A stretch of 32,826 nucleotides of DNA from Elusimicrobia bacterium HGW-Elusimicrobia-1 (GCA_002841695.1 PHAN01000017.1:1-32826); one strand, 5' to 3'; shown: positions 14,778 through 32,826, counted from the stretch's first letter. A program made the numbers and translations. The notes: generated by a model not told the origin, from the sequence alone.

Positions 14778-14874
14778 AACCATGGGGTAACTTTTTTATT
14801 TGGCTCAATTTAGCGAAAACTCGGTTGCAAAACGCGCACGGTTCGGGGCAACGCTTAATATGGAGGAACAGGAA

Positions 14875-15327
14875 ATGTCAAGAACTCTTACGCAGGACGA
14901 AGTATCGTGGCTGTTCAAAAATTTAAGAAGAGTAAACTTCTTCACAAAGGTTACTATCGATAACATCGACCGGATTGTCGCGAAATTCGGAGTGTATTCC
15001 TACGAGAAGGGAAAATCCATAATCAAAGAGGGCGCCGTCGGAGGAGCTCTCTATATAATAAGAAGCGGCGAGTGCGAGGTCTCCAAGAAAAAAGGATGGT
15101 TCGGCAGCGCGCGCCTGGCGGCGCTTAAAGAGGGTGATTTCTTCGGGGAGATGTCCCTGGTGTCCGACGAGCCCACTACGGCGACCGTCAGAACGCTGGC
15201 TCCCGCGGAAGTTTTTGTGCTTTTGAAGCGCGATTTTCTTGCGCTGAAAACCGACAACAAGGAACTCTCGGACGAGATAGATTTTATAATAGAAAGAAGA
15301 AAATTCGACACAGTCAGAGCCAAATAG
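14875..15327 (+). CDS. Cyclic-nucleotide-binding-domain protein
   Basis: A 150-residue single cNMP-binding-fold protein with an N-terminal helical stretch. The beta-roll spans ~40-130: FGVYSYEKGKSIIKEGAVG, then GALYIIRSGECEVSKKK, and a phosphate-binding-cassette region GDFFGEMSLVSDEP (~97-110). The cassette normally continues with an Arg that contacts the cyclic phosphate (PRSATV-like); here it is PTTATV, so nucleotide binding may be lost or altered. No DNA-binding domain is attached, so it is not a Crp-type regulator by itself. ATG 14875 is chosen because GGAGG at 14862-14866 sits eight bases upstream; ATG 14860 and a TTG at 14800 lack one. Confidence 0.85.
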   Translation: MSRTLTQDEVSWLFKNLRRVNFFTKVTIDNIDRIVAKFGVYSYEKGKSIIKEGAVGGALYIIRSGECEVSKKKGWFGSARLAALKEGDFFGEMSLVSDEPTTATVRTLAPAEVFVLLKRDFLALKTDNKELSDEIDFIIERRKFDTVRAK

Positions 15328-15913: not shown

Positions 15914-18900
15914 ATGCAGCGGGGTCATAAAAGTACAAGCGCAGGAAAGACGTCCTTGGCGTTGTTCGCCGCGGCGGCTTTCCTTTTTATTTTTACGGGC
16001 TATGCGTCGGCTTCATATACGGGCGACTTTCTGTCGGCCGGCGGAGCCGTCTATGACGGCGGCGACTTCGACGAGGCCTATGCCGTCGCCGTCGATACCG
16101 TTTCCGTCGGCGGACCGTACTTGTACGTGGCGGGCGCGTCTTCCCGCGCCGCGTCGGGACTCGATTACTTCCTGGTGAAATATGACGCGTCCGGCGTCAT
16201 GCTTGCTTCGGCGACTTATGCCGGCGGATACGAAGACCGCGCCCGCGGCATCGCGCTCGACCCGCACAACGGAGCCGTTTACGTCACCGGTGAATCGTTC
16301 AACGGTTCCCGTTACAATGTTTTCACCGTAAAATACACCACCGCGCTCGAGTATGTGTCCTCCCACACTTTCGAAAGCGCGTTCAGTAGTCACTCCAGCG
16401 GTTTTTCAGTCGCTGCGGACAGGCAGAATCCGCCTTTTATTTACGTGGCGGGAGACATCAACAACGGCTCGGACTACGATTATCTTCTGATTAAGTACGA
16501 CGCGGATCTCGTTTTTATTTCCTCCGCGGTCTATAACGCCGGAGCCGACGACTTTTGCCGTTCCGTGGCGGTATCCACCGTCGGGGCGCACATCTACGCC
16601 GCCGGCTACTCATACGGCGCCACCTATGACTATCGCACCGTGAAATACGATTCTTCGCTGAACTTCGTGTCGTCGGCGACTTTTGACGGCGCCGGCAGCG
16701 GCTCCGACCGCGCGTACGCCGTGGCGACGGCCCCCTCCGGCGACGTAATCGTCGCGGGGGAAAGCGACAACGGCTCCGCGATAGAGTTTCGCGTACTGCG
16801 GTACTCGCCGTTTCTCGCGCTGCTGTCGTCGGCCGGCTACGCCCACAACGGCGCCGAAACCCGCGCCCGCGGCGCGGCCGTCGCCGCAAACTCCGATATT
16901 TACGTGACGGGCTTCGCCTTCAACGGCGCCGACACCGACTATCTGACGGCCCGTTACAGCTCCACCCTCGCCACGCGCCTTTCGACCGCGACATACGACA
17001 GCTCGCAAAACGACTACGCGATGTCCGTCGCCGCGGGGATTTCTTCTTACGTTTACGTGACCGGTTATTCCGGCATTTCCGCCGCCGCCAACTTCCGCAC
17101 GCTCCGCTTTTCCGCCGACGGCGCGCCGCCGGACACCACCCCGCCCGCCACAGTTGAGGATTTGTCCGCTCAGCCCGGCAATGCGGCGGGTCAGGTGAAA
17201 CTCACATGGTCCGCGCCCGGCGACGACGGAGCAACGGGGGCACTGCCCCCCGGCTCGGCTTTCAAGATTCAAGTATCAAGCGTCTCCGACGGTACCGGCG
17301 ACGGAAAAACCGGATGGCTTTATCAGAACGCCCAAATCACCGTATCAACATCTGGCGTCACTCCGACAACATTGGTAAGTTATGTAGTGGCAGGGCTTGT
17401 CCCTGCTTCAACATATTATTTCAAAATCTGGCATGCCGACGAAGTCCCCAACTGGTCAGGACTTTCAAACACAGCAACTTCATGGGCGCAGGTACCGCAA
17501 GCGGGATTATGGAAGAGCGTGCAGGGCGGCGGTTGGTCTAACGGGGCGATATGGGATAAAGGAAGCGTCCCTCATTCATTGAGCGTTGTCGAGATTTCGC
17601 ATACCGTTACATTTGATATGTTTGAGACGGAATCTTCGACGATAAACGTGATGAATTTAGGCACGTTACAATTTGACGGAGCCGTTTCGTCGCGCGCGCT
17701 TGTTGTCGCTGGTAATCTTGAAATAATGAACGGCGGAAAGTTTTTGATGCCGCCCAATACGGGATACATCTCGGCTTTGAAGATAAAATGTAACGCCTCG
17801 GGGGAATTTGGAGTTATCGTCAACAATGGCGGCGTTTTTGACGTTCGGGGAAACACCACGACCACCCCTTCGACGAGAAACACGCTGATAACATCCGCGA
17901 ATCCCGCCAACAAAACCTACATCAGAAACCTCTCTCAGACCGAAGCGAACTTCAATATGTATTATGTGGAAGTAAGCAGTGTGGGGGTGGATGATACATC
18001 AAAACGGGGAATAACTTTTGACGGTGCCGGAACAAGAGGAAAAATCAATTATTCAAATATTCATAATGGGTATTATGGCATTTACCTTACTGACAGTTCC
18101 AATAATACATTGAGCAATAACAGCGTCTACTCAAATACAGATATAGGGATTTACCTTGAGTATGGTTCCAATAATACCCTAATCAATAATAGCGTCTACT
18201 CAAATCCTCAGGGGATTTACCTTAATGGTAGTTCCAATAATACCCTGAGAAATAACAGCGCTTACTCACATTCATTCTATGGCATTTACATTTACAACAG
18301 TTCCAACAACAATACTATAAGCAATAACCGCGTCTACTCAAATACATATCAGGGGATTTGCATTATTAGTGATTCCAATGATAATACCCTGAGCAATAAC
18401 AGCGTTTACTCAAATTCAATTGGGATTGAACTTTATCAGAGTTCCAATAATACAGCCGTGAACTGTGATTTTGGGAAAGACGGGAACAACACAAGCGGAG
18501 ACATCGGGTACCGTGATGACCCAAACAATAATTCAACATTAATACTTAAGAGTTGCAACCTCTATTCTACAACCAAAGTAAATACAACTTATTTAGATGA
18601 TGCCGGCGCTTATGTTGTTTCTTACAACCAGAACGGTGAAGCAGGCACAGCAAAAATCTGGGGCGATTACAATATCCCTAACGGAAAAGCGGAAAAATTC
18701 AACTATGCGGATTTGCTTTACGTCTCGACGGCGACACAGCCGAACTCGACATTAAAAGGCGCCGGCTCGATTACATATCCGACGACAGAAGACGGCAAAA
18801 CGCAGACGGAATTTTGGGAAGTCAGATATAACGGCTCGAGTTTCGACGTAAAAAGAGGCACCGGCCCGGTTCTCGCTTTCGACGGCATAGCGAATGTGGG

Positions 18901-21900
18901 CTCCGGATATTATTCGGGCGACCGCGGAGTGGGTTTCACGGCCAGCGGCACGTTCCAGCCGGACGACGCATTTTATTTTGTCACGATTTCATCGTCTGGC
19001 GACCAGGGCGTTCAGAAAAAAATCGAGTTTAACGACTCGCCGGTCGGAACAAAACTGACGGTTGACGCCGGCGGCGCTCTTGAAATGATAGGCGCTCCGG
19101 GGAATCCCACGATTTCCACGGCCTCCTCCTCGGGCGTTTATTACGGCTTTAATTCGTCGGGGACACTTAACTTCAACAATTACATAATTTCAAATACTTC
19201 TTCCACGGGGCTTTCGATTTACGGCGGCAGCATCGTTAATTTAAGCAGCGGTACGTTTGCGAACATTCGTCCGGCCGTCGCGCCTTCAAGCGCGGCGTAT
19301 ATAAATGTAAGCGGCGTTACATCCAACGCCACTTTTTACGGATGTGTTTTCGAGGGCGGCCCGGCCGATTACAACGTAAAAGCCGACGGCTCCGGAATTA
19401 ACTGGACGTTCAAAAACTGGAGCGGCCCGAAGGGCGGGCCCGCATATACGTCCGCCGTCAACGGCGCGACGGTGAATTGGGAAAGTCCGCCGCCAAATGT
19501 CAAAATCTGGGACGGCGGCGGCGCCGACAGTTTGGCGTCAAACGCACTTAACTGGGTTAATGATGTCGCCCCGCAAAACGGCGATTCTATTATTTTCGGC
19601 TCAACCAATCCAACGAAGGGATGTCTATGGGATATCGGCGGCATAAGTTTCTCATCGTTCACAATGAGTGTCGATTATTCAAGTTCCGTCGTGCTGAACG
19701 ACAGCTTTACTGTCGACAATGATTTTACGCTTGCCGGCGGCACCTTTAATGCTGCCGGTATTTTTCTGAATATCCGCGGTAACTGGACTCATTCGGGCGG
19801 CAATATCGCGGTAAGCACCGGCGGAATCACATTTAACGGCTCAACCCTGCAGGAGATTTATCAGTCGCCCGGCAGTTTTTTTCCGGTCAGGGTGCAGGTT
19901 TATTCGTCAAACATCGTCCGCGCCGTTTCTGACTTAGAATTCCGCCAACCTTCAACTTTTAACCCGTTTTTAATAATTTCATCGGGCACTTTTGAAGCGG
20001 GAGCATCTACTCTGACATTTATTTTGCAGGGCGCCAATAACGGGCAATGGTGGCCTGTTTATCTTGATACTTCAGGAATATTTCTGCCCCAGACATCAAC
20101 TGTAAAATTATTAAGAAGTTCCGGCACAACTAATGGTTTTCGTTTTGAACATAACCTGAATTTCAATAATCTTATTATTGATAACCATGGAGTTGATGGC
20201 GGAGTCGCGCATCAGTTTACGGGGCCCGCGGATCAGATTGTAACCGCTGATTATTTTGAATTCACAGAAGGTTCTCTATATGCAGGCGGGAAGTTCATAA
20301 TCAACGGCAATGTTGTTTTGGGGGTGCCGTCGGATTACAATAAAACAGCAGTATTAAGTATGCAGGCGGCAGGTTCCACCATAACAGTTCGCGGCAGTTT
20401 CACGACATATGGGATGGGTGGGCTTGAGTTGGGAGCCATGCTGGAATTGGGCGGTAATTTCACCGGTTCAATAGATGCGGCGGGAAGCAACTCGGTAATT
20501 ACCAGCACCAGTCCCGGGAATGTATTTCCGCTCATTACTTTAGACCGCACGTATCAATACACGGGTTTGAAAGAAACTACTTTTGATTCTATACAAGGAG
20601 TTGTTATTTCAACATGGGTACAGGGCGGGTATTATTCCGGCGTTGCTTTCTCTTCTATAACTTTCCAAAACTTAAAACCCGGCGCGACGGCGGTAACTTA
20701 TACTTTGTCCGGCGACACCCAGACGTGGGCGAATTTGAATTTTGCCGACACAACTATGTCCGTGAACGTTTCGGCGCCTAATCTTGTCTGGCCGGGATTT
20801 GTCGCTTTGCCGAATGCTTTCGGCCCCCGCTCCGGCCCCGCCTACGAAAACGACCCGAACAATGTGATATTCTGGTCGACGCCGACCGCTCCGTCGGGGT
20901 TCGACGCCGCTGCGGTGTCCACATCGGGAATAAAATGGTTCTGGACGGATAATTCAAACGACGAGAAGGGTTATCGTCTTAAAAACTCCACCGGTGCCGT
21001 CATCGCCGACCTGTCGTATAACACAACGGAATTCGTTTTGACGGGACTTGCGCCGAACGCGTCCGCCGCCGCGCTTGTCGAGGCGTATAATCCCATCGGC
21101 GCGTCAACGAGAGCTCTCGTGGCAAAATACACTCTCGCCGACATTCCGTCGGGATTGTATTTGTCCAATGTGACGTCACACTCGGTAACCGCCAACTGGT
21201 CCGCCAACGGCAACCCCGCCGGAACATTTTACGATTTGGAATACTCCACCTCGCCTGATTTTACGCCTTACGACGAGGTTTACGGAACCATTGCGCTCGC
21301 CGAAGTTTGTGGCCCTCTTCTTGCAGATACAACATATTATTTCAGAACGAACGCCAGAAACTTCGATTCGATAAACACGGGATTCAGCGCGGTTGTCTCT
21401 ACGTTAACGCTCGCTCCGCCGCCCGCCGGTCCCGACAAAGTATGGTCTCGCTCCGCGGATCTCGGAAGCGGCTTGGCCTCATCGGCGGCCAACTGGTCGC
21501 CGTTCGGAGTTCCCGCCGACGGAGATGCGGTCTACTTTAACGCGACATCGACCCAATCCTGCGCGTGGGACATCGCGGGTTTAACGCTTTCTTCTTTCAC
21601 AATGACGTCCGGCTATACGGGGCAGGTAAATCTTTCCACCAATGTTTTTGTCGACGGGGGTTTCTTAAAAACCGGAGGGGCTTTCAGCATAGGCAACAGC
21701 ATACTTGAACTCACCGGCGATTTCACTTCTACGGCCGGCAGTATGGGCGCCGGCACGACCGGCAAGATACTGTTTTCGGGCAGTACCGTTCAGTATCTCA
21801 ACGCTTCGGGAATGGTGACGTTTGAAGTCGCCTCGTCGAGCGAGGTCGTAAATATCACCTCCGGCTTTATGAGCGTCAACGGCAACGTGTTTCTTACGTC

Positions 21901-24900
21901 CGGAGTTTTGAGGGCGGGCAACGAAATAAGAGTCGGCGGCGACTGGACTCAGGCCGGCGGAGTATTCGACGCGCAGAGCAGCACCGTTACATTTGATTCG
22001 ATAAATCTTTCTCAGGATATAATGACGCTGACGGTAAATCCGTTCAATCATTTCAAAGTCAATGCGACGACAAACGTTTACGTCTATTCGACCGTCGACG
22101 TCAACGGCGTGTTTACCCTCGATACCGGCACGCTGTCACTGGTGTCCGGCGGACGGATAAACGCCAATCAATCGTCGGATATTATGTCCCGTTTCGAGGT
22201 GAATGCGGGCACATTCTCCTCCACCGGAATGGCCAGAGTCCTCTCCGGCGGAGAACTCGATTTGAGCGGCGCTGCCGCTTCGACCGTGCGGCTGGCTACG
22301 GGAATAAACATAGGCGCGGGCGGAAGAATAAGCGCCAATTCCGCTTTGGACGTCATTAAATCTTCCGCGGCCGGCCAGTATTATTCTTTCACGGTCGCCT
22401 CCGGCGCGCTTAACGTGACCGGCCTCACTCTCGACGGATTGAATGCCGCGGGTCTTGTCGCGCAAAGCGGTTCGCTTATACAGAATCTCAACAACGTCAA
22501 TTTTAAAAACGCCGCCGCCGGCGCCGTCGCGCTTCAAATACTTTCCGGCGGCACGTCAATCTATACTTTCTCGAACCATTACTTCGACGCCTCCGTTTCC
22601 ACCAACGTTTACGCTCCGAATCTCACCGCCCCCGGATATATCAATATGTCCGGAGCGACCGGGCCGAAATCGGGATACAATTATGAGAATGATCCCAACG
22701 GACGCATTTTCTGGGGCGCTCCCGAGACACCGACGGGAGCCGATTCTGTCGCGGTCGGTATATCATCCATAACCTGGGGATGGACGGACAATGCGTATGA
22801 AGAAGAGAGTTATAGGATCAGCAGAGTTTCAGACGGAGCTTTCTTGGTTCAAGGGTTATCGATAAATACTACATACTGGACACAAACAGGTTTTTCGCCG
22901 AACACATCGGAGCAGATTACGGTCGAAGCCCTAAACGTCATCGGCGGGGCCGGTTCAACACCTTCTCCCATCCGATATACTCTTGCCGCAGTTCCGACGG
23001 GATTGTATCTGACTAATGTGACGTCGCACTCGGTAACGGCGAACTGGTCGCCGAACGGCAATCCGTCGGGTACGCAATATTATGTTGAATGTTCTTCCGT
23101 AGGGACAGGATTTATTCCTGTCCTCTCTAACAGCGGGTGGACGACCCAAATAAATTGGGTCGCTACATCACTTCAACCAAATACCACATACTGGTTCAGG
23201 GCGCAGTCTAGGAATGTCGATGCAATTGCAACTGCTTTTGATACGACTGTTTCCACGGCGACACTCCCTGATCCCGTCAAGCCGGCGTCCGGCATACTGT
23301 ATCCGGCGCACTCGTCGTATTGCAAAGCGCTGAACGTCATCTCCGGCACCGCCGCTGCCACCGGCGGGGCTTCGATTGCCGAAGTTCAGGTCTTTCTCTT
23401 CGATATAGCCCTTGGCAAATATTGGAACGGAGTAAACGCATGGTCTCTCGATGCGGAATCGTGGTTTTCCGCCGCTGTTTATCCGTCGAGCTGGACATAT
23501 GACGTCTCTGCCGCTGCTTTCCAAAACGACAAAGAATATCGCGTCGTTTCCCGAGCCATAGATACTTTCAGCAATTATGAAACCCTCAGAGCGACCGCGG
23601 TCTTCAGGATAGATACTGCGCTCCCGGCGTCCGGCGTGGCATACCCTGTTAATAACAGCGCCTACTCGTCGCTGGGCGTGGTTTCCGGCACCGCCGCCGA
23701 CGCGGCAAATGCGTCCTTTAACTCCGGCGTCTCGTCGGTAAAAATACGCTTGTTGCGTCAGTCCGACGGATTTTTCTGGGACGGCGCGGTCTGGGTCGTC
23801 GGAGAGTCGTGGCTCGACGCCACTGGCTCGGGCGCATGGTCATACAACTCGTTGCCCGCGTTTACATCGGGATATTACATTGTCAATTCGCGGTCGTACG
23901 ACGTCGCCGGCAATGACGAGGTTGCTTTCTCGACGAGCGCGTTCTATATATCGGGACCCGCCACGCGACTTATTTTGACCATCCCCGGCGAAACGTTCCA
24001 GGAAGGCGCCGCTCCGGGTAAAATCGGGACGCCGGCTTCGCGGACGGCCGGTTCGGCTTTTATGATAACGGCTTTCGCCGTGGACGACAACTATTATCTC
24101 GACGCATCGGCGAACGCGGGTGTATTTGCGGTCACGTCCGACGGATACGACGTCGAACCGGCCACTCGGACGCTCGTCGGAGGGACGACGACATTCGCGC
24201 TGAATCTCCTGGCCGCCGGAACTTCGCAGATAACCATTTCGGCTTCCGTTCTGACATCGGCTGCCACATCAGTCGTGGTGCTTCCTTCCGTTCCGACGAG
24301 AATTCAACTGCTCGTGCCCGGCGAAACGGCTGCCCCGGGCAAAGTTATGTCGGCGCCCTACGGTAAAACCGGAACCCCCGCGACTCAGATAACGGGACAG
24401 GCCTTTAACGTCACGGTTATGGCAACCGACGATTACTGGAATATTCAGCCCGCGAGCAATCCTGTCGTCAACATAATCACGAGCGACCCCGCCGATTCTC
24501 ATCCGCCCGACGCTTCGCTTGTGTCGGGAGAAAAGATATTTTCCGTCATATTCGTAACGGCCGGCTCATGGACGGTCTGCGCCACCGATATAGACGGAAC
24601 TCCTTTGGAGTCATCAACAAGCACAGTCGTAAATGTTTTAGACAACACACCGCCCGCCGCCGTTACGGATATTACAGGACAACCCGGAGTTTCCGACGGA
24701 GCAATTGTTTTGAATTGGCCGGCTCCGGGCGATAATGGGGGGGCAAGCCCGCTCCCCGCGGGTTCAATGTTTAAGATTCAACACTCAACTTGGGCGGGTG
24801 TTTTATGGTCGACGACGGCGGCACAAATCACCGTTTCCACATCGGGTGTCACACCGACCGCGCAGGTCGCTTACACTGTCGCGGGTTTAACGGGCTGGAC

Positions 24901-26734
24901 GACATATTATTTCAAACTCTGGCACGCCGATAATGCGCCGAACTGGTCGGAACTTTCAAATACCGCCACTTCTTACGCCGCCGATTTTGCCGCGCCGGGC
25001 GTTCCGTCGCTGATATCTCCGTCGAGCGCGACCGCCGCCAATCTTTTGGCCGTCGATTTTTCGTGGAACCCGTCCACGGATTCGGGCTCCGGCGTGGCCG
25101 GTTACGAACTTTACATTTCCACTTCCGGCGATCCTGCGGTGTTTGTTTCTTCGACGGCGACGGTCTCGACCTCCGTTAATGTCGTCCTGCCTAATCAGGG
25201 AGCGTATCAGTGGCGCGTCAGGGCCAAAGACAAGGCCGGCAATTTTTCGACTTACTCCGCCGCGTACACACTCACGGTCGACACCACTTCGTCGTCCGCG
25301 CCTGCCGCGCCGACGTCTCTGTCCGGCACGGTAATTTCGACTGTTTCAGTGCGATGGAATTGGCTCGATAACGCGACGAACGAAACCGGATATAGATTGC
25401 AGAACGCCGCCGACGAAATCATAATAGACGGCCTCGCCGTCGACACTACTTTCTACGTCGAGTCGACGCTTTCGCCGAACACGCAATATGTCCGCCGCGT
25501 TCGCGCATACAATGGCGCCGGCGCGAGCGCTAAATCGAACGATGCGGCCGTATATACACCGGCCAATCCCCCGTCGAATCTTACTTCTCTGTCGCGCACG
25601 GCGGCTTCAATTTCGCTTTCCTGGACGGCCGGCGGAGGCGGTAATACCCGCTTTGCCGTCGCGCGTTCGTCCGACGGAATATTGTATCAGATGCTTGTGG
25701 CCTGGGCAGACGCCAAAGTCGGGACCAATTATACCGACGCCGGTTCCATCAAACCGGACACAACCTATTTTTACCGCGTGGCAGGTTACAACGGCGACGC
25801 CGTTATTACGGCATTCACTTCCGTCATAGCGGTGAAGTCCGAATCGGTTCCCCCCGATACTATATCGGGCAAAATCACTCAGGCCGACGGCAAGACGCCC
25901 ATCGCGGCTTTAAGGGTGGATGCCGCGGCTCCCGACGGGACTTCGGTATATTTCGTGCATACTTCCACCGACGGCTCATACACCATATCCGCGGTCGCGC
26001 CCGGCAAGTATCGCGTTCAGGCGGGATGGGCGCTCAACGACATCGTGTCGTCGGTTTACAAAGACGAAATATATAACGGCTCCGTCGGAGTGGACTTCAC
26101 GCTTGAAGTCAGTTTCGCGCCGTCGGCCATATCGGGCGTCATACGCAAAGCCGACGCCGGTGTGAGCGCGCCCAAAGTGCGCCGGGTCAACGGTCCGCTG
26201 GCTCCGGAGGAACAACTCGGCGAAACTTTCGTCGAGATATTGAAGGACGGAGTGATAGCTCTCAGGGTGTACGCGGATCGTTTCGGCTATTTCGAGATAG
26301 GAAATCTTATGCCGGGCGGCTATGTGTTGCGCGCGTTCAACGGTCTGGCGTACAGCGCGCCGAAAGCCGTCTCCCTGGCGGAAGGCCAGATGGCCGTGCC
26401 GGCGTTCGCATTTTCGCCCATTGCCGGTTCCGGCGATGATGTTTACGCCTACCCCAACCCCGCGCGGGGATCGTCGGCTGCAATACGCTTTAAGGCCGGT
26501 GTCGCTTCTCCCAAAATCGAACTTAAAATATACAATATAGCCGCTGAACTCATACGCTCGGCGGATCAAAATGATTTTGCGGCGTCGGGAGCGGGAGTGT
26601 ACAAATTCGACTGGGACTTGAATAATTCGTCGGGCAAAAAGGTCGCCTCCGGCGTCTATATATATGTGCTTAAAGTTTCTTCCGAGGACGGCGAAGAATC
26701 CGTGGTTAAAAAGAAGCTGGCGATCATAAAATAA
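15914..26734 (+). CDS. Giant modular secreted surface protein (3606 residues)
   Basis: A signal peptide (~1-34, ending ASAS) starts a fully beta-rich, probably surface-exposed protein. Modules: seven propeller blades with DYFLVKYD-like strands (~40-400, SBBP type), FN3 (~407-525), a G8-like/right-handed-helix segment from ~532, six NosD-like 22-24-residue beta-helix coils (~722-855), two large homologous blocks starting at WDGGGAD (~1196) and WSRSADLGSG (~1841), two Ig-like domains (~2456-2685), two Big_1/invasin-like domains with IPGET/VPGET starts (~2685-2910), several FN3 domains (~2911-3313), and two carboxypeptidase-regulatory-like domains (~3315-3505). The C-terminal FlgD/Por-sorting-like domain (~3509-3606) has YPNPARGSSAAIRF and KVASGVYIYVLKV. 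Adhesion or matrix function is likely; no catalytic residues are recognised. Palindromic repeat DNA is translated within it near residue 2400. Confidence 0.88.
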   Translation: MQRGHKSTSAGKTSLALFAAAAFLFIFTGYASASYTGDFLSAGGAVYDGGDFDEAYAVAVDTVSVGGPYLYVAGASSRAASGLDYFLVKYDASGVMLASATYAGGYEDRARGIALDPHNGAVYVTGESFNGSRYNVFTVKYTTALEYVSSHTFESAFSSHSSGFSVAADRQNPPFIYVAGDINNGSDYDYLLIKYDADLVFISSAVYNAGADDFCRSVAVSTVGAHIYAAGYSYGATYDYRTVKYDSSLNFVSSATFDGAGSGSDRAYAVATAPSGDVIVAGESDNGSAIEFRVLRYSPFLALLSSAGYAHNGAETRARGAAVAANSDIYVTGFAFNGADTDYLTARYSSTLATRLSTATYDSSQNDYAMSVAAGISSYVYVTGYSGISAAANFRTLRFSADGAPPDTTPPATVEDLSAQPGNAAGQVKLTWSAPGDDGATGALPPGSAFKIQVSSVSDGTGDGKTGWLYQNAQITVSTSGVTPTTLVSYVVAGLVPASTYYFKIWHADEVPNWSGLSNTATSWAQVPQAGLWKSVQGGGWSNGAIWDKGSVPHSLSVVEISHTVTFDMFETESSTINVMNLGTLQFDGAVSSRALVVAGNLEIMNGGKFLMPPNTGYISALKIKCNASGEFGVIVNNGGVFDVRGNTTTTPSTRNTLITSANPANKTYIRNLSQTEANFNMYYVEVSSVGVDDTSKRGITFDGAGTRGKINYSNIHNGYYGIYLTDSSNNTLSNNSVYSNTDIGIYLEYGSNNTLINNSVYSNPQGIYLNGSSNNTLRNNSAYSHSFYGIYIYNSSNNNTISNNRVYSNTYQGICIISDSNDNTLSNNSVYSNSIGIELYQSSNNTAVNCDFGKDGNNTSGDIGYRDDPNNNSTLILKSCNLYSTTKVNTTYLDDAGAYVVSYNQNGEAGTAKIWGDYNIPNGKAEKFNYADLLYVSTATQPNSTLKGAGSITYPTTEDGKTQTEFWEVRYNGSSFDVKRGTGPVLAFDGIANVGSGYYSGDRGVGFTASGTFQPDDAFYFVTISSSGDQGVQKKIEFNDSPVGTKLTVDAGGALEMIGAPGNPTISTASSSGVYYGFNSSGTLNFNNYIISNTSSTGLSIYGGSIVNLSSGTFANIRPAVAPSSAAYINVSGVTSNATFYGCVFEGGPADYNVKADGSGINWTFKNWSGPKGGPAYTSAVNGATVNWESPPPNVKIWDGGGADSLASNALNWVNDVAPQNGDSIIFGSTNPTKGCLWDIGGISFSSFTMSVDYSSSVVLNDSFTVDNDFTLAGGTFNAAGIFLNIRGNWTHSGGNIAVSTGGITFNGSTLQEIYQSPGSFFPVRVQVYSSNIVRAVSDLEFRQPSTFNPFLIISSGTFEAGASTLTFILQGANNGQWWPVYLDTSGIFLPQTSTVKLLRSSGTTNGFRFEHNLNFNNLIIDNHGVDGGVAHQFTGPADQIVTADYFEFTEGSLYAGGKFIINGNVVLGVPSDYNKTAVLSMQAAGSTITVRGSFTTYGMGGLELGAMLELGGNFTGSIDAAGSNSVITSTSPGNVFPLITLDRTYQYTGLKETTFDSIQGVVISTWVQGGYYSGVAFSSITFQNLKPGATAVTYTLSGDTQTWANLNFADTTMSVNVSAPNLVWPGFVALPNAFGPRSGPAYENDPNNVIFWSTPTAPSGFDAAAVSTSGIKWFWTDNSNDEKGYRLKNSTGAVIADLSYNTTEFVLTGLAPNASAAALVEAYNPIGASTRALVAKYTLADIPSGLYLSNVTSHSVTANWSANGNPAGTFYDLEYSTSPDFTPYDEVYGTIALAEVCGPLLADTTYYFRTNARNFDSINTGFSAVVSTLTLAPPPAGPDKVWSRSADLGSGLASSAANWSPFGVPADGDAVYFNATSTQSCAWDIAGLTLSSFTMTSGYTGQVNLSTNVFVDGGFLKTGGAFSIGNSILELTGDFTSTAGSMGAGTTGKILFSGSTVQYLNASGMVTFEVASSSEVVNITSGFMSVNGNVFLTSGVLRAGNEIRVGGDWTQAGGVFDAQSSTVTFDSINLSQDIMTLTVNPFNHFKVNATTNVYVYSTVDVNGVFTLDTGTLSLVSGGRINANQSSDIMSRFEVNAGTFSSTGMARVLSGGELDLSGAAASTVRLATGINIGAGGRISANSALDVIKSSAAGQYYSFTVASGALNVTGLTLDGLNAAGLVAQSGSLIQNLNNVNFKNAAAGAVALQILSGGTSIYTFSNHYFDASVSTNVYAPNLTAPGYINMSGATGPKSGYNYENDPNGRIFWGAPETPTGADSVAVGISSITWGWTDNAYEEESYRISRVSDGAFLVQGLSINTTYWTQTGFSPNTSEQITVEALNVIGGAGSTPSPIRYTLAAVPTGLYLTNVTSHSVTANWSPNGNPSGTQYYVECSSVGTGFIPVLSNSGWTTQINWVATSLQPNTTYWFRAQSRNVDAIATAFDTTVSTATLPDPVKPASGILYPAHSSYCKALNVISGTAAATGGASIAEVQVFLFDIALGKYWNGVNAWSLDAESWFSAAVYPSSWTYDVSAAAFQNDKEYRVVSRAIDTFSNYETLRATAVFRIDTALPASGVAYPVNNSAYSSLGVVSGTAADAANASFNSGVSSVKIRLLRQSDGFFWDGAVWVVGESWLDATGSGAWSYNSLPAFTSGYYIVNSRSYDVAGNDEVAFSTSAFYISGPATRLILTIPGETFQEGAAPGKIGTPASRTAGSAFMITAFAVDDNYYLDASANAGVFAVTSDGYDVEPATRTLVGGTTTFALNLLAAGTSQITISASVLTSAATSVVVLPSVPTRIQLLVPGETAAPGKVMSAPYGKTGTPATQITGQAFNVTVMATDDYWNIQPASNPVVNIITSDPADSHPPDASLVSGEKIFSVIFVTAGSWTVCATDIDGTPLESSTSTVVNVLDNTPPAAVTDITGQPGVSDGAIVLNWPAPGDNGGASPLPAGSMFKIQHSTWAGVLWSTTAAQITVSTSGVTPTAQVAYTVAGLTGWTTYYFKLWHADNAPNWSELSNTATSYAADFAAPGVPSLISPSSATAANLLAVDFSWNPSTDSGSGVAGYELYISTSGDPAVFVSSTATVSTSVNVVLPNQGAYQWRVRAKDKAGNFSTYSAAYTLTVDTTSSSAPAAPTSLSGTVISTVSVRWNWLDNATNETGYRLQNAADEIIIDGLAVDTTFYVESTLSPNTQYVRRVRAYNGAGASAKSNDAAVYTPANPPSNLTSLSRTAASISLSWTAGGGGNTRFAVARSSDGILYQMLVAWADAKVGTNYTDAGSIKPDTTYFYRVAGYNGDAVITAFTSVIAVKSESVPPDTISGKITQADGKTPIAALRVDAAAPDGTSVYFVHTSTDGSYTISAVAPGKYRVQAGWALNDIVSSVYKDEIYNGSVGVDFTLEVSFAPSAISGVIRKADAGVSAPKVRRVNGPLAPEEQLGETFVEILKDGVIALRVYADRFGYFEIGNLMPGGYVLRAFNGLAYSAPKAVSLAEGQMAVPAFAFSPIAGSGDDVYAYPNPARGSSAAIRFKAGVASPKIELKIYNIAAELIRSADQNDFAASGAGVYKFDWDLNNSSGKKVASGVYIYVLKVSSEDGEESVVKKKLAIIK
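18077..18445 (+). repeat. Six tandem 66-72 bp beta-helix coding repeats
   Basis: Inside the giant gene, units beginning GGN-ATT-TAC (G-I-Y) start at 18077, 18146, 18212, 18281, 18353 and 18422, with period 66-72 bp. Each encodes a coil with the pattern GIYL..SSNNTLSNNSVYSN, the NosD/PbH1 beta-helix type. Copies share long near-identical DNA blocks such as GTTCCAATAATAC and AGCGTCTACTCAAAT, and the DNA is visibly AT-richer than flanking modules, which points to recent tandem amplification or a distinct origin. Confidence 0.85.
19500..23270 (+). repeat. Duplicated ~1.9 kb module within the giant gene
   Basis: Two homologous blocks lie head to tail (about 19500-21425 and 21436-23270). Each has a WDGG/WSRS-type opening, NW....P..GD...F, a CxWDI..L..SSFTM motif, a beta-helix-like middle, then an APNL..PG segment, YENDPN..IFW, and paired FN3 domains with TSHSVTANWS.NGNP. 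DNA similarity is diverged, so the duplication is old compared with the beta-helix repeats. Confidence 0.75.
23099..23166. repeat. Palindromic element translated inside the giant gene
   Basis: GTAG (23099-23102) and CTAC (23163-23166) bound two hairpins. GGACAGGA (23103-23110) pairs with TCCTGTCC (23116-23123), and CGACCCAA (23142-23149) pairs with TTGGGTCG (23155-23162). It is of the same GTAGGGACAGG family as 574-596. The open frame is kept and the element encodes about 23 residues (~2396-2418) in an FN3 domain. Confidence 0.8.
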
Positions 26735-26981: not shown

Positions 26982-28514
26982 ATGAAAAAAATAATGCTCA
27001 ATATTGTTTTTGCGTCGGTTATAGCGGGCGTTTTGAGCGCCGCCGCCGCCGCCGCCGTTGAAATCAGGGCGGCGTATGTCACCGACGGCCTGGGCGCGCG
27101 CCGGACGACTTTTTCTTCGACGGAAAGAATAACCCTTAAGGCCGAGGTCTACAACTCCGCGCCGTCCGACAGAATAGATTTTGTTTTCATTATTTACGAC
27201 GCGCTCGGCTCAAAACTGATGGAACATACCGGCAATTCCGTACCCGGCTCGGTCGGCGCCGGCGGGTCGTCGTTATCGGCGGTTCAGATTTCAAGATTTT
27301 ACAAATCGCCCGGATCTTACGTCTATGAACTCAAGGTAAATGAAATACGCGGCGGCGCCGTGGCCGACTCAAAGACGTCGCGCGCTTCCTTTTTCGTGTA
27401 TTCACCGATACTTACGCTTACCTATCCGAACAATAACGCAATGAACCTGGCCGATAGCCCGCTTGCATTCCGTTGGGCGGGTTCCGGAGCGGCCAAGTAT
27501 CGCATTTCCGTCGACGATGATATGTCTTTTTACAACACTATTTTTTCGGCGGAGACCCTGGACACGTTCTATTCTTATCCTCAGAATCCGCCGGATATCA
27601 GACAGCGTCTCAAAGGTTCGCAGAATTATTATTGGAAGGTGGAAGGTCTTGACGCCTTCGGAAATGTCATAGCCGCGTCTCAGATGCCGTTTGTATTCAC
27701 TATAAAGGACACCGCGTCCTCGCAGATTTCGCGCGATATCGGCATCGTGTCGGTGGTCATTGAGCCGCCGGACGAGGATTTCGTGCTGATAAAAGTGGAG
27801 ATAAAAAATCTGGGCGCCCGGGGGGAAAGCGGCATACCCGTCGCGCTTTTTGTCGACGGCGTATCCGCAGGGTCGTCAAGAATAGAATTCTTGAACGCAG
27901 GGCAGTCGTTTGTCGCGGAGTTCAGAACGCCGAGGCCCAAAGCCGAAAAAATAGTCGTAACGGCGGCGCACAATTTCATCGACGATACTCCGGCCAACAA
28001 TATGCTCACTCTTACTCTTGCGCTGCCGCAGGCAATGGCGGTCACGCGCGGGCGCATAATAGGCAAGGCGCTGGAAGACGACGGCGATAAATCCAAAGAC
28101 AAGGGCATAGACGGCGCGGCTGTATCCTACGTCGGGCCGGTGTCGGGGGAAGTCAAAACCGCCGTGAACGGGCAGTATCAGATACGGGATCTGCCCTTGG
28201 GCGCGTATAAAATTTCGGTGACCCACCCTGATTACGAGCCGGCCGAAGCGTCCGTGGAGTTGTCGCGCTCGCGGGCGTATCCGGCGGTGGATTTCCGACT
28301 GAAAACGGCGAAAAAAACGGCGGCTTCTTCGATAATAATGAGCCGCGTGGATTTTTGGAATACATTGCGTCGGCATCTCTCCGGAACAACGCGCGATAAA
28401 ACCGAAGGATACGAACTTTCCGAGATAACAGGCATCGCGGAGAGCGAGTACGCGGCTATCCTGGAAGCGCTTAAAAACGGCAAAGCCCGCATAACAAACG
28501 AAACTTTGGAGTAA
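26982..28514 (+). CDS. Exported CARDB and carboxypeptidase-regulatory-like protein
   Basis: A 510-residue protein with a signal peptide (~1-25, ending AAAAAA). Residues ~28-125 are Ig-like (AAYVTDGLGARRTTFSSTE onward), ~145-240 a second beta domain with LTYPNNNAMNLADSPLAFRW (a sugar/peptide-binding-like sandwich), and ~250-350 a CARDB-like domain (DIGIVSVVIEPPDEDFVLIKV, GESGIPVALFVDG). Residues ~360-445 are a carboxypeptidase-regulatory-like domain with NGQYQIRDLPLGAYKISVTHPDY. The last ~65 residues are charged and helical. The GTG at 26967 gives five extra residues, but ATG 26982, with purine-rich GGAAG nearby, fits the signal peptide better. It opens the four-gene envelope set. Function unknown. 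Confidence 0.75.
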   Translation: MKKIMLNIVFASVIAGVLSAAAAAAVEIRAAYVTDGLGARRTTFSSTERITLKAEVYNSAPSDRIDFVFIIYDALGSKLMEHTGNSVPGSVGAGGSSLSAVQISRFYKSPGSYVYELKVNEIRGGAVADSKTSRASFFVYSPILTLTYPNNNAMNLADSPLAFRWAGSGAAKYRISVDDDMSFYNTIFSAETLDTFYSYPQNPPDIRQRLKGSQNYYWKVEGLDAFGNVIAASQMPFVFTIKDTASSQISRDIGIVSVVIEPPDEDFVLIKVEIKNLGARGESGIPVALFVDGVSAGSSRIEFLNAGQSFVAEFRTPRPKAEKIVVTAAHNFIDDTPANNMLTLTLALPQAMAVTRGRIIGKALEDDGDKSKDKGIDGAAVSYVGPVSGEVKTAVNGQYQIRDLPLGAYKISVTHPDYEPAEASVELSRSRAYPAVDFRLKTAKKTAASSIIMSRVDFWNTLRRHLSGTTRDKTEGYELSEITGIAESEYAAILEALKNGKARITNETLE

Positions 28515-28527
28515 CGGTCGATTCAAT

Positions 28528-29538
28528 ATGAAAAAGACGACAGGCATTATCTTTTCCGCCTTGATAATGGCGGCGGTATCGATTGCGTCCTTTGCGGCGG
28601 AAGAGCCGGAAAAAAAACACGCCGCGGGTTTTGTGACGGACACCGAGGGTGAATGCTGGATCTTAAATCCTTCGGCGGACCGTTCCCGCATAAAACTCGG
28701 TATGTTCGTATACGAACGCGACACCATAAAAACAGAACGCCGCGCGCAGGTAAAGATGGTTTTTTCAAACGGTGTGGAAATCAGAATCCGCCAAAATTCC
28801 GAACTCTCCGTTATGGAAGTGCCTCCCGCCGAGCGCGGGATGTCTTCGAGGGTAAAAATGGTTTTCGGCGGAGTGTTTTCCAGAGTGATAAAGCAAAAGA
28901 CAAAGTTCAATGTGCACACACCCGTCGTCACTATTGCCGTGCGCGGCACCGAGTTCGATACGGACGTTGCGCAGGGAACTGGCGCTACGGACATCAGGGT
29001 ATTCAAAGGCGTCGTGGCTCTTGAAAATGATTTCGGCTCAAGGGAACTCAAGGCAAATATGAAATCTTCGGTGTCGGCCGGCGAGCCGCCTGCGCCGCCC
29101 GCAGCGTTGTCCGAAGAAGAAAAAAAACCGGAGGTTCCCGCCGAACCCGTCTATTCCCTTGGCATTGAGACGGCTAAGACGGAGCTTGAGGAGGGAAAGG
29201 AATTTTCCGCCGCAGTTACCGTCAAAGACGCCGAAGGCCTGGAAGCAAAAAACTTCAAAAACAAAATTACGCTTAGTGTAACCGGCGGAGCGCTTCTGAG
29301 CCGTTCCGGACAAAATAAGTGGTCGTCGTCGGTAGAGGGTTCTTCCCGCGACGGTGAATTTAAGTTCGGCATCAAAACCGTTTCGGCCGGACCGGCGCAG
29401 ATAGTGGCGGCGGCCAAATCGGCGCAGTCGTCGTCCCTTGATATCAACATCTTGCGTCCGAAAGAAAGGACTCTCAGAATAAACGTAAAAGAGGGCTCAT
29501 CGGAGCGGGAGATCAAGATTAAACTGAAATCTAAATAA
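28528..29538 (+). CDS. FecR-domain protein, standalone exported
   Basis: A 336-residue protein with a signal peptide (~1-23, ending SFAAEE). A FecR domain spans ~30-165: VTDTEGECWILNPSADRSRIKLGMFV, RIRQNSELSVMEV and the characteristic VHTPVVTIAVRGTEFD, where VRGTEF is the strongest family mark. It lacks the N-terminal cytoplasmic anti-sigma helix and TM of classical FecR regulators, so it is not a typical anti-sigma factor. A Pro/Glu-rich linker (~185-210) and an Ig-like domain (~212-310) follow, then a basic C-terminal tail. It starts 13 bases after the upstream gene, in the same transcript. A wall- or surface-associated role is likely for such standalone FecR proteins; exact function unknown. 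Confidence 0.82.
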   Translation: MKKTTGIIFSALIMAAVSIASFAAEEPEKKHAAGFVTDTEGECWILNPSADRSRIKLGMFVYERDTIKTERRAQVKMVFSNGVEIRIRQNSELSVMEVPPAERGMSSRVKMVFGGVFSRVIKQKTKFNVHTPVVTIAVRGTEFDTDVAQGTGATDIRVFKGVVALENDFGSRELKANMKSSVSAGEPPAPPAALSEEEKKPEVPAEPVYSLGIETAKTELEEGKEFSAAVTVKDAEGLEAKNFKNKITLSVTGGALLSRSGQNKWSSSVEGSSRDGEFKFGIKTVSAGPAQIVAAAKSAQSSSLDINILRPKERTLRINVKEGSSEREIKIKLKSK

Positions 29539-29549
29539 CGGCTCCGTTA

Positions 29550-30704
29550 ATGAAAAAAGCAGCGTTAATGCTATTCCCGTTAATCGCGTCATTTGCGTTG
29601 GCGGGAATTGTTTTTTACTATCTTATAATGATGCCTCTGTCGGGCGGTTACAACGTAACCGTGCGCACATCGGGGCTGAAGCCCGTTTATTCCGTCGGCG
29701 CTCCCGTCACTTTTAACGGCATAATCGCCAACGCGGGCAAAAACGCTTCGGAGTTTTACATAGATTCCGGCATAATATCCGACGGCACGGATAATATTTT
29801 GCGCAAGTCGTATTTCCTGGCGGCGGGTGGAAGCAGGCATTTTTCGTTTGGTTTTGCCGCCGATAAGTCCCGCGAGGGAAAAAAAACGCTTTTAGTGTCC
29901 GTATCCCGACCGTCGAAACTGCCCGGCTTCAAAGACGCCGTAATTTGGTCGCGCCAGACCGAATTGGTTTTTGCCCCGCTCCGCGACACAAAACCGGCCT
30001 CGCCCGAGGTAAAATCCAAGCCGTCGCCCGCGCCGCTTGCGGCGCCTCCGCCAAAATATGCGGAAGAGATCGTGCGCGCGCAGTTTTCGGCAACATTCCC
30101 CGAAACAGTCCGCTATGGCGAGGTCTCCAAACTCACCGTCCGTCTGAAAAATCTTACATCGACCCCGGAGGTTTTCGATGTGTTTCTTCAAATAACGCCG
30201 CCATCGGGTACGGAAACGCTCTCCACGAGCCGCGTTGCGCTGCGTCCGTCGGAAACCAAGCAGGTCGACTTTTTGTACAAAGTTATGCCGGGGCATTCGG
30301 AGGGAAATTATTCCGCGAAAATATGGTACCGCACGAGGCAGGCGGTGTCCGAAGAAATTTACGCCGGCGCGTTCAAACTATCGGACGAGGAACCCGTGAT
30401 ACAGGTAAAGAAAATGCTTATGGATCCGGTATCGGGCAAACCCGCGGAGATACTTGTCGAGGCCTCCGACGATATAGGCGTTCGCGAAGTCATATTTATC
30501 TCGGCGGCGCAAAGTCCGACGGGTGCGCGGTCGGACAGCAGAAATATTCCTATGTATCTTTTTTCAGGCGACGAGAGGAGGGGGATATGGCGCTGCGAAT
30601 ATATACCGAAAAAATCCGACGCCTACGTCTTTTCGTTTCTGGCGGTGGACACTAAACGTCAGCGCTCGCGCCTGGGCGAATTTCCCGTCAAAGTTATCAA
30701 ATAA
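29550..30704 (+). CDS. Membrane-anchored protein with Ig-like domains, unknown function
   Basis: A 384-residue protein. Residues ~4-30 are a hydrophobic anchor (FPLIASFALAGIVFYYLIM) without a clear signal-peptidase site, suggesting an inner-membrane-tethered periplasmic protein. Residues ~35-140 are an Ig-like domain with PVTFNGIIANAGKN, ~145-170 a Pro/Ala/Ser linker, ~175-285 a second Ig-like/CARDB-like domain (GEVSKLTVRLKNLTSTPE), and ~290-384 a third, with ASDDIGVREVIFISA. It starts 11 bases after the FecR gene. I recognise no enzymatic motif; with its neighbours it may be a periplasmic part of an envelope assembly. Confidence 0.7.
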   Translation: MKKAALMLFPLIASFALAGIVFYYLIMMPLSGGYNVTVRTSGLKPVYSVGAPVTFNGIIANAGKNASEFYIDSGIISDGTDNILRKSYFLAAGGSRHFSFGFAADKSREGKKTLLVSVSRPSKLPGFKDAVIWSRQTELVFAPLRDTKPASPEVKSKPSPAPLAAPPPKYAEEIVRAQFSATFPETVRYGEVSKLTVRLKNLTSTPEVFDVFLQITPPSGTETLSTSRVALRPSETKQVDFLYKVMPGHSEGNYSAKIWYRTRQAVSEEIYAGAFKLSDEEPVIQVKKMLMDPVSGKPAEILVEASDDIGVREVIFISAAQSPTGARSDSRNIPMYLFSGDERRGIWRCEYIPKKSDAYVFSFLAVDTKRQRSRLGEFPVKVIK

Positions 30705-30762
30705 GAATCGCCGCCGCCGAATTAAAAAAAATCCTGAAACTTGAGCGAACCGGAGAACATTC

Positions 30763-32694
30763 ATGAGCGTTAAAAAATCCCTGAAGCTGTGCGCGGCGGT
30801 TTTTCTGGGTGTGGCATTCCTGCGTCTTCCCGCCGCCGCCGGATTATCGGCACAGTTGCAATTGTCGGTAGCCGTTCCCGATCCGATAGTTGCCGGCGAG
30901 GAACTGACTATCCAGGCGATAATATTCAACAACGGAACCGAGATTTGGGCCGCCGGGGATTATTCCGCCGAGGTCGAAATATTCGACGCTTCTAAAAACT
31001 ATGTGGCGAAAACGCCGCGCAAGAAGGGAACGCAGCTCATAAGGCCGTCGGAGGCGGCGCTGTTTTATGTGCCTTTCGCCGTTCCCGCCGGTTTCAACGG
31101 GTCTTATTTTTACAAGGTCTACCTGCTGCATAAGGACCGTCGCATCTCGGAAAGCGATTTTTTCGGCTTTAACGTCCTTCCTTTGTCGAGGCCGCCCAAA
31201 GAACCTTCGGCGCTTGAACTCGGCGGCAACGCTTTCATATATTATAAGGGGACTTCAAAATACGATTGGGCCGATTACACCGGTAACTTTAACTTGAATT
31301 TGATCGGCGCGGTCAATCGTAAGCCCATGATGTTCAATATCTACACTTTCCACACGCCTAAGTCGACGTCCACTCCGTCCGACGTCAATCACGAGATATA
31401 CACCATCTTCGCCGGCTATTACGCCGATGACTGGTCGGTGTCTCTCGGCGACATCCTGCCGGTATTTTCGCCGCTTTCGCTTTACGGAACCGGTATGCGC
31501 GGCGGAATTTTTGATGTAAGAAGCGGAGGTCTCAGCGCGTCCGTCGTGGGCGCAAGAAGCGTGGCCGCGCGCGAAGGCAGCCAAACCATCGACGGAGTTT
31601 ACGAGAGAATTGTCGCGGGCGCCCGCGCGGAATACGCTGTGGCCGAATTTGTCTCGCTCGGCGGCTCGTATCTTTACGGTTTCGACCGGCGGGAATCTAT
31701 AATCGCCGCCGGCCCCGCTCTCCGGCCGGCTTCCAACGGCGTGACCGGCGGAACACTGAAAATCAAACCCGCCGAGCATGTGAGCTTATCGGCCGAATAT
31801 CAGACGAGCGATTACCGCTCGAACGTCGACATATCGTCGACTTCCGCGGCGGACACGGCTTACAGGTTGGAGATAAGCTGGGCTCCGCGCAACTTCAACG
31901 TCAGGGGCGCCTATCAGACCACCGGGGTTGATTTCAATACTTTCGGCGCGCCCGGCGCCGCCAAGGACAGAAAAACCATAGATTTATCGTCGGGGCTTAC
32001 GCTTTTCTCAAAGATGAATTTTTCAATCGGCTATCTTAATTATACCGACAACGTGGCCGCCGATCCGTCGAAAGTTACAACCAACCAGAATATGTACAGC
32101 GGCGGAATTACGCTTGCTATGGACGGCTCGATTCCATCGCCGTCGGTGTCTTATTCGCAGAATGAGGCCTGCGCCCTGGAGCCGAACCGCGCCGCGCTCG
32201 ATAATATAACCAGGACAGTCGCGGCGGGTTTGTCGGGCAGGATTATCGGTACGAACTACTCCGTTTCCGCGCAGCGTTCCGATTTCGCCGATCTGAACAA
32301 AACGGCCGACGATTTCAGAAGCGATACGGTGTCGTCGGGTTTTTCCTTCGAGCCGGCAAAATTCGCCGCGGTCAATATAGGCGCCACGTTAAGCGTTACT
32401 GATAATCTTATTCAAAATACGCAATCCCGCACCGGCTCCGCTTCCGGCGCCGTCAATATTAAGATCGTTCCCGACAAGCTCACATCTCAGATCTGGGGAA
32501 GTTTGACCGATCGCCGGAATCCCGCCGAAGCCGTCGACGTTTCGGACGCGGGCGGGAACATTGAGTTCACTTATCAATTCAACGGTTCCCTGGCGTGGAC
32601 TCTTGGCGGCGGACTAACGCGCGTCGAAGACAGATTCGCCGAAACTTCCGTACCGGAACACGGGCTGAACACTCGCGTGAGTTACTCATTTTAA
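30763..32694 (+). CDS. Outer-membrane beta-barrel with N-terminal Ig-like domain
   Basis: A 643-residue protein with a signal peptide (~1-27) and an Ig-like domain (~30-145, beginning LQLSVAVPDPIVAGEELT). From ~150 to the end, alternating short beta strands ending in aromatic residues form a probable barrel. The C-terminus TRVSYSF ends in Phe, the usual BAM-recognised signal. Residues 227-248 (LGDILPVFSPLSLYGTGMRG) form a conspicuous GD-P-FS-L-G-RG motif, faintly like segments in usher-type or gliding/secretion barrels; that comparison is inference. GGAG at 30752-30755 supports ATG 30763. It is separated from the upstream gene by 58 bases, and downstream, within 15 bases, is the transposase end. 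Transport or display function is plausible, not shown. Confidence 0.78.
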   Translation: MSVKKSLKLCAAVFLGVAFLRLPAAAGLSAQLQLSVAVPDPIVAGEELTIQAIIFNNGTEIWAAGDYSAEVEIFDASKNYVAKTPRKKGTQLIRPSEAALFYVPFAVPAGFNGSYFYKVYLLHKDRRISESDFFGFNVLPLSRPPKEPSALELGGNAFIYYKGTSKYDWADYTGNFNLNLIGAVNRKPMMFNIYTFHTPKSTSTPSDVNHEIYTIFAGYYADDWSVSLGDILPVFSPLSLYGTGMRGGIFDVRSGGLSASVVGARSVAAREGSQTIDGVYERIVAGARAEYAVAEFVSLGGSYLYGFDRRESIIAAGPALRPASNGVTGGTLKIKPAEHVSLSAEYQTSDYRSNVDISSTSAADTAYRLEISWAPRNFNVRGAYQTTGVDFNTFGAPGAAKDRKTIDLSSGLTLFSKMNFSIGYLNYTDNVAADPSKVTTNQNMYSGGITLAMDGSIPSPSVSYSQNEACALEPNRAALDNITRTVAAGLSGRIIGTNYSVSAQRSDFADLNKTADDFRSDTVSSGFSFEPAKFAAVNIGATLSVTDNLIQNTQSRTGSASGAVNIKIVPDKLTSQIWGSLTDRRNPAEAVDVSDAGGNIEFTYQFNGSLAWTLGGGLTRVEDRFAETSVPEHGLNTRVSYSF

Positions 32695-32708: not shown

Positions 32709-32826
32709 TTATAAACGATTTGGCACTAAATTCGTGATATAAGACACAAGCAACTCGAACAGCGGCTCATGTCTATGATTATATCTAAACTCCATCTCTT
32801 TAAGGTAAAACGGGAACCATTCTTTG
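32709..32826 (-). CDS. IS1595/ISXO2-like transposase, C-terminal end (partial)
   Basis: Reading the - strand from the window edge, 38 codons are open to a TAA (complement of 32709-32711). The peptide contains WFPFYLKEMEFRYNHRHEPL and FELLVSY, the ending typical of ISXO2-like (IS1595-family) DDE transposases, in which 'EFRYNHR' is followed by FELL. Only the C-terminal ~38 residues are in view, so DDE residues and the IS ends cannot be checked. The DNA here is AT-richer than the neighbouring gene. The element ends just 14 bases beyond the stop of the outer-membrane protein gene, convergent to it. Confidence 0.7.
   Translation of the reverse strand, partial: KEWFPFYLKEMEFRYNHRHEPLFELLVSYITNLVPNRL

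Follow-up and report, generated by a model that had tools for sequence, protein, structure and literature searches.

Gene content of the locus

The window, that is, the whole 32,826-nucleotide stretch of DNA that was analysed, is one entire contig (C17) of the genome of Elusimicrobia bacterium HGW-Elusimicrobia-1, which is 2.06 Mb and 97% complete. The initial annotation had described a giant secreted protein followed by a set of four envelope genes spaced 13, 11, and 58 bp apart, and the positions of the open reading frames and the spacings are exactly as described (Table 1). All four proteins of the set start with a hydrophobic leader. In the congener G001 the five genes, namely, the giant and the four that follow it, are in identical order, and comparison of the four window genes with those of the congener gave dN of 0.18-0.26, dS of 1.3-2.3, and dN/dS of about 0.09-0.20. 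Thus, all four genes are under purifying selection and, because the gene order is identical as well, the set is not there by chance. The contig stops 132 bp beyond the barrel gene inside a transposase-like fragment, which we take to be of the IS1595/ISXO2 kind, and the contig end is attributed to this fragment. The idea that the same repeat ends both congener contigs was not supported, as the end sequences differ.

Table 1. Features of the window and one related gene elsewhere in the genome (the last row is numbered within its own locus)
Feature	Position	Strand	Remarks
Cyclic-nucleotide-binding protein	14800..15327	+	PF00027, 67 bits
Giant secreted surface protein	15914..26734	+	ORF, 3606 aa
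FlgD_ig-like/sorting-type tail of the giant (YPNPA...KKKLAIIK)	26441..26731	+	FlgD_ig 23.5 bits; alignment A7
CARDB/carboxypeptidase-regulatory-like secreted protein	26982..28514	+	510 aa; PF07705, PF13620
Stand-alone exported FecR-domain protein	28528..29538	+	336 aa; PF04773
Genus-specific anchor: N-terminal membrane helix and Ig-like domains	29550..30704	+	384 aa; low-confidence model
Outer-membrane protein: N-terminal Ig domain and ~26-strand barrel	30763..32694	+	643 aa; model
Transposase-like frame, C-terminal fragment KEWFPFYLKEMEFRYNHRHEPLFELLVSYITNLVPNRL	32709-32825	-	At contig end
Divergent Sov/SprA-like protein	L164 4109-9187	-	Own genome, adjoins LptF/LptG

The giant protein has a signal-like N-terminus, Ig domains, and Pfam matches to fn3 (97.7 bits) and Beta_helix (101 bits). 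That it carries a C-terminal sorting-like domain, as had been claimed, holds in the form of a FlgD_ig-like tail whose score is below the cut-off of 27, and this was the only tail domain found, there being no Por_Secre_tail-type sorting domain (PF18962) on the window giant. Tails of the FlgD_ig-like type gave 28 matches across the genome at E ≤ 0.01. In the relative L160 the protein that precedes the barrel does have a Por_Secre_tail (PF18962, 31.5 against a cut-off of 27). Homologous giants lie upstream of the CARDB gene in L031, L032, and L033, and in G002 (contig C14, L033+L058, ~5665-26257) a single giant gene of ~20.6 kb, coding for ~6860 aa, occupies the position equivalent to that of the window giant.

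In the first protein of the set CARDB (24.9 bits) and CarboxypepD_reg (36.7 bits) were both above the Pfam cut-off, and the second matched FecR with 60.4 bits; four further FecR proteins are encoded in the genome. The third and fourth proteins, the anchor and the barrel, matched no Pfam family. The low-confidence model of the anchor (pLDDT 47) has an N-terminal helix at residues 3-27 followed by beta domains. Among the loci fetched it was seen only in this genome and in the congener, with 64% identity between the two, and it is therefore genus-specific and outside the conserved core. A 684-aa protein of L111 was considered as an anchor homologue but this is unsupported (hhalign probability 0.1), and that protein is a string of CarboxypepD_reg domains.

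The barrel was modelled by AlphaFold2 with six sequences (mean pLDDT 70), and the model has an Ig-like domain at residues 30-139 followed by ~26 long strands and a terminal Phe. The sequence has no match in PDB, Pfam, or NCBIfam, and Foldseek gave a generic likeness to large barrels. Structure prediction had been named as the test of whether this is an ordinary porin, and the strand count together with the fold search rules out a porin of 16-18 strands. The top global fold match is MtrB (TM 0.46), which would fit a wide barrel at the centre of an MtrCAB-type conduit for extracellular electron transfer, but the barrel has no sequence match to MtrB and the five proteins have 0 CXXCH motifs. With no multihaem cytochromes among them, such a conduit was ruled out and its probability is close to nil. 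A distant barrel paralogue, conserved between families, is present on contig C6 of the same genome (98420-99325) and in L038 (3993-9143) and L039 (3104-6273); in the latter two its neighbour is a long protein homologous between them (1183 aa in L038, incomplete in L039).

Recurrence in the phylum and linkage to rotor and stator genes

Recurrence was examined in 295 Elusimicrobiota genomes, many of which are from one genus so that the counts are not independent. The barrel was found at ≥100 bits in 57 of these genomes and the CARDB protein at high score in 50, 49 of which are also barrel-positive (Fisher P 3e-46, not corrected for kinship). Thirty-eight of the 51 CARDB genes are on the same contig as the barrel, every one of them within 25 kb. 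CARDB, FecR, and barrel occur together in G001, G002, G049, G087, G095, G210, G228, and others, and the set extends to further families of the phylum (L032, L033, L111, L153, L155, and L156); in these six loci and in L031, FecR sits between CARDB and the barrel. A search for the FecR, anchor, and barrel trio had been proposed, and what recurs is FecR and the barrel with CARDB, while the anchor is limited to this genus. The suggestion that the genes form an undescribed envelope module is thus supported, since the set recurs and the barrel differs from an ordinary porin.

In relatives the set is usually accompanied by genes for a rotor and a stator. In L111 (G095), which belongs to a different class of the phylum, ten genes run in the order giant, CARDB, FecR, Ig protein, barrel, FliFG, MotA, MotB, MotB, and TPR. 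The same components are found in L032, L033+L058, and L156, and some of them in L153, and in families f12 and f15 the order is barrel, FliFG, MotA, MotB, MotB, and TPR. In G049 FecR and the barrel are separated by genes for a protein with a FliG domain, MotA, two MotB proteins with OmpA domains, and a TPR protein, and in G002 the same motor genes lie across the ~6860-aa giant, on its far side. FliFG-like proteins are present in 122 of the 295 genomes, and all 57 barrel genomes are FliFG-positive (P 6.5e-27, kinship ignored). In at least 35 of these 57 the barrel and FliFG are no more than 15 kb apart, the chance expectation being ~3% as estimated with three copies per genome, whereas in G005 and G014 the barrel and the motor are on separate contigs. 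FlhA (PF00771), the flagellar export protein, is absent from the genome under study and is present in only 3 of the 295; the few FliFG matches in genomes that do have FlhA may be genuine flagellar FliG.

These findings bear on the simplest explanation, which is that the window holds an ordinary secreted-protein operon and that surface, FecR, and barrel genes merely lie near motor genes in some genomes. Large secreted proteins often contain FecR, CARDB, and fn3 domains and this genome has its four other FecR proteins, but the genes co-occur and co-localise in many families of the phylum and are fully ordered in the L111 cluster, which makes this explanation very unlikely.

FliFG is a single protein of ~490 aa in which a FliF RBM3-like domain, a TM helix, and FliG are fused. 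Its N-terminal part has a signal-like leader, an RBM3-like domain, and then the TM helix; the top PDB match of this domain is FliF RBM3, which is weak (E 0.0047), and Pfam FliF_C was found at 8e-5, just under the cut-off, in two members. The FliG part has a match at 1.6e-41 to FliG of T. maritima, with the charges of the torque helix kept in part only. Because it has the RBM3-like domain, the TM helix, and the FliG part in one chain, FliFG resembles, as judged from sequence, a minimal MS-ring and torque ring combined. MotA matches flagellar MotA at 2.8e-52 and flagellar MotA/PomA models at 1e-53 to 1e-59, while TolQ/ExbB models gave only 0.006-0.008, and by these matches MotA is assigned to the flagellar class. 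MotB (1.8e-35) has an OmpA domain and there are usually two MotB genes per cluster. The proton-binding Asp of MotB is present in 41 of 50 rows and is Asn in the remaining 9 (one locus being counted twice); at each locus with an Asn-type MotB the partner MotB retains the Asp, and such pairs would suit an asymmetric MotB heterodimer. The Asn-for-Asp form is found in L054 (11541-12284) and also in L032, L099, L103, L107, L114, L145, and L148.

In the FliFG tree a barrel-linked clade A is separated from clade B with support of 100/99. Clade B members are found together with a PorV-like/TPR fusion and a giant that has a CTD tail. Type C, a longer form of ~600 aa, falls within the B side of the tree and is followed by long proteins without a Pfam match. 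Type C clusters are seen in L102 (contig C11 of the same genome, 10134-20000) and in L113, where a PorV-TPR protein, the ~600-aa FliFG, and then a 1546- or 1851-aa protein are encoded along with a proline-rich protein, neither the long nor the proline-rich proteins having a Pfam match. FliFG also occurs beside response-regulator-like genes with no MotA nearby in L108 (3026-4483) and L109 (4843-6366).

The cyclic-nucleotide-binding protein upstream of the window giant has a close homologue (9e-43) in L147, where it comes right after the TPR gene of the motor cluster, and in L037 a weaker one behind the barrel, the latter beside a large membrane protein which is presumably CHASE2-cyclase-like. 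It may be a regulator of the cluster or the motor.

A proposed ion-driven arm and its alternatives

We propose that the set and the giant are the periplasmic and surface arm of an ion-driven trans-envelope machine, powered by a non-flagellar FliG/MotAB motor and giving gliding-like surface motion, and we rate this proposal at even odds. Ion flow through the flagellar-class MotA/MotB stators would drive an inner-membrane ring of FliF(RBM3)-TM-FliG, and the torque of the rotating ring would pass through periplasmic partners, namely, TPR, FecR, CARDB, and the Ig domain of the barrel, in a presumed order of contacts, to the large outer-membrane barrel. The barrel would then hold, display, move, or export the giant CTD-tailed surface protein, the putative load, and the result would be surface adhesion with gliding-like movement. 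This proposal is supported by the ordered cluster of L111, the FliG, MotA, and MotB matches, the presence of FliFG in every barrel genome, the absence of FlhA, the link between clade A and the barrel, and purifying selection on the window genes. It is weakened by the split contigs in G005 and G014, the partly kept torque charges, the Asn in some MotBs, and counts that are linked by kinship.

It is weakened also by the motor complement of the genome itself. There is no motor gene within the window, and searches of this genome and the FliFG tree gave no clade-A motor, only clade B on contig C2, in a cluster with MotA and two MotBs, and type C on contig C11. Contig C21 (L055, 9050-10613) has in addition a MotA/MotB pair without a FliG-like gene, adjoining two secreted proteins that lack Pfam matches. 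The window set may work with the paralogous clade-B motor of contig C2 or with a motor that was not assembled, or its own motor may have been lost. If it was lost, the envelope genes could have been kept for adhesion as a static scaffold or anchoring complex in which the anchor ties the set to the inner membrane. The absence of a clade-A motor from both genomes of the genus, the restriction of the anchor to this genus, and the purifying selection that persists on the genes would all fit such a scaffold. On the other hand, the clade-B motor on C2 has its stators, and the absence in the congener is weak because that genome is 89% complete and in 340 contigs. We therefore consider a static scaffold improbable.

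The initial annotation had suggested that the set could bridge both membranes, but it makes up only the half at the surface and in the periplasm; relatives have it joined with a FliG/MotA/MotB motor and, at some loci, with PorV, and the anchor is not part of the core. Its remark that there is no ATPase stands, and relatives carry an ion-driven motor in its place. Its statement that T9SS core genes are lacking is correct inside the window but not genome-wide, because SprA-like and PorV-like genes are found elsewhere in the genome. The clade-B cluster has a member of the PorV/PorQ family (NF033709, 102 against a cut-off of 90) that does not reach the PorV and PorQ equivalog cut-offs, and the profile of this family finds the PorV chain in 6H3I, a structure of the T9SS translocon, at 1e-14. 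The SprA/Sov-like protein has 1691 aa and matches TIGR04189 with 135 bits (E 1.7e-39), below the equivalog cut-off of 200; searched as a single sequence against PDB it gave no match. Similar proteins are encoded in the relatives L166, L167, and L168.

These genes raise the alternative that the motor powers secretion. In such a type IX-like export FliFG/MotAB would replace GldLM, PorV- and SprA-like proteins would carry CTD-tailed giants across the outer membrane, and the window set would serve one giant as the site of its export and anchoring. Besides the PorV/PorQ domain of the clade-B cluster, the SprA-like protein, and the 28 tail matches, this alternative is favoured by L156, where a PorV gene (PF19572, 35.6 against a cut-off of 27) lies between FecR and the barrel, and by the Por_Secre_tail protein before the barrel in L160. 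Against it, the SprA-like gene adjoins LptF/LptG and not the motor, the SprA-like protein is present in genomes of family f3 in which no FliFG was found, and its score is under the equivalog cut-off. Export alone is thus a tentative possibility that we hold to be rather unlikely, and movement, to which we give an even chance, is favoured over it; the two readings overlap because the T9SS performs both jobs. The earlier term surface assembly describes one of two live functions, the other being a moving surface adhesin.

Relation to known systems and significance

FliG has been regarded as a mark of the flagellum. The motor of the relatives' clusters resembles that of the flagellum in the middle and C domains of FliG, the FliF RBM3-like domain with its TM helix, the flagellar-class MotA, and the MotB with an OmpA domain. 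It differs in that the FliF and FliG parts are fused, FlhA is missing, there are usually two MotB genes, and it is linked to an outer-membrane barrel, FecR, CARDB, TPR, and giant surface proteins. The FliG rotor and MotA/MotB are present in relatives, where they belong to the linked clusters, and in this genome on a contig other than the window.

To our knowledge, the CARDB, FecR, and barrel set does not occur in the T9SS/gliding machinery of Bacteroidota (SprA, PorV, GldKLMN, and SprB). The likeness to that machinery consists of the PorV-like proteins, the sorting-type tails, the divergent SprA-like protein, and the giant surface protein, and, by analogy, an ion-driven inner-membrane motor. 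The difference is that the motor here is FliG/MotAB; GldM (TIGR03517) matched 0 of 60, with the control genomes silent as well. A gliding-motor review describes GldLM as non-homologous to MotAB (PMC13104615).

We know of no FliG in the Agl-Glt system of Myxococcus. That system, according to the same review, is like the one proposed here in having a proton-driven MotAB-like motor and an envelope-spanning complex without a flagellum (PMC13104615). AglRS is placed on the generic ExbBD/TolQR side of the family in a review of MotAB relatives (PMC12505986), whereas MotA here is of the flagellar class and not of the TolQ/ExbB-class AglR type. Two other systems were rejected. The MotB-like subunits match ZorB models of Zorya, generically, but neither MotA nor FliFG had a PADLOC match, there is no ZorA, and FliFG and surface proteins are present here. 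FecR-FecI-FecA signalling shares the FecR domain and is ruled out because FecR here has an exported-type leader and the barrel, having no Pfam match, is not a TonB receptor by Pfam.

According to a 2025 survey, 11% of non-motile species have rotor proteins but no filament, and the survey left open what use these proteins have (PMC12199754). Neither the gliding-motor review (PMC13104615) nor the MotAB-relatives review (PMC12505986) names, in the passages searched, a FliG-based non-flagellar motor or Elusimicrobiota. In open papers, with few subscription journals among those covered, there was no account of a FliG/MotAB motor together with surface proteins in Elusimicrobiota, and an earlier description elsewhere, for instance on bioRxiv, is possible. 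The parts belong to known families and it is their combination that is new.

The divergent Sov/SprA-like protein extends type IX-like parts beyond Bacteroidota. Elusimicrobiota may well have, with chances that we put as equal either way, a separate class of rotary trans-envelope machine in which a fused FliF/FliG ring and MotAB, without flagellar export, act through a wide Ig-barrel to drive either surface adhesins or an exporter of the type IX-like kind. With a FliG rotor and MotAB joined to giant surface proteins in the absence of FlhA, the question of what such half-motors do becomes directly testable. The conserved cluster bears on the origin of the flagellar motor and, if the proposal is true, the flagellar rotor would here be functional outside a flagellum.
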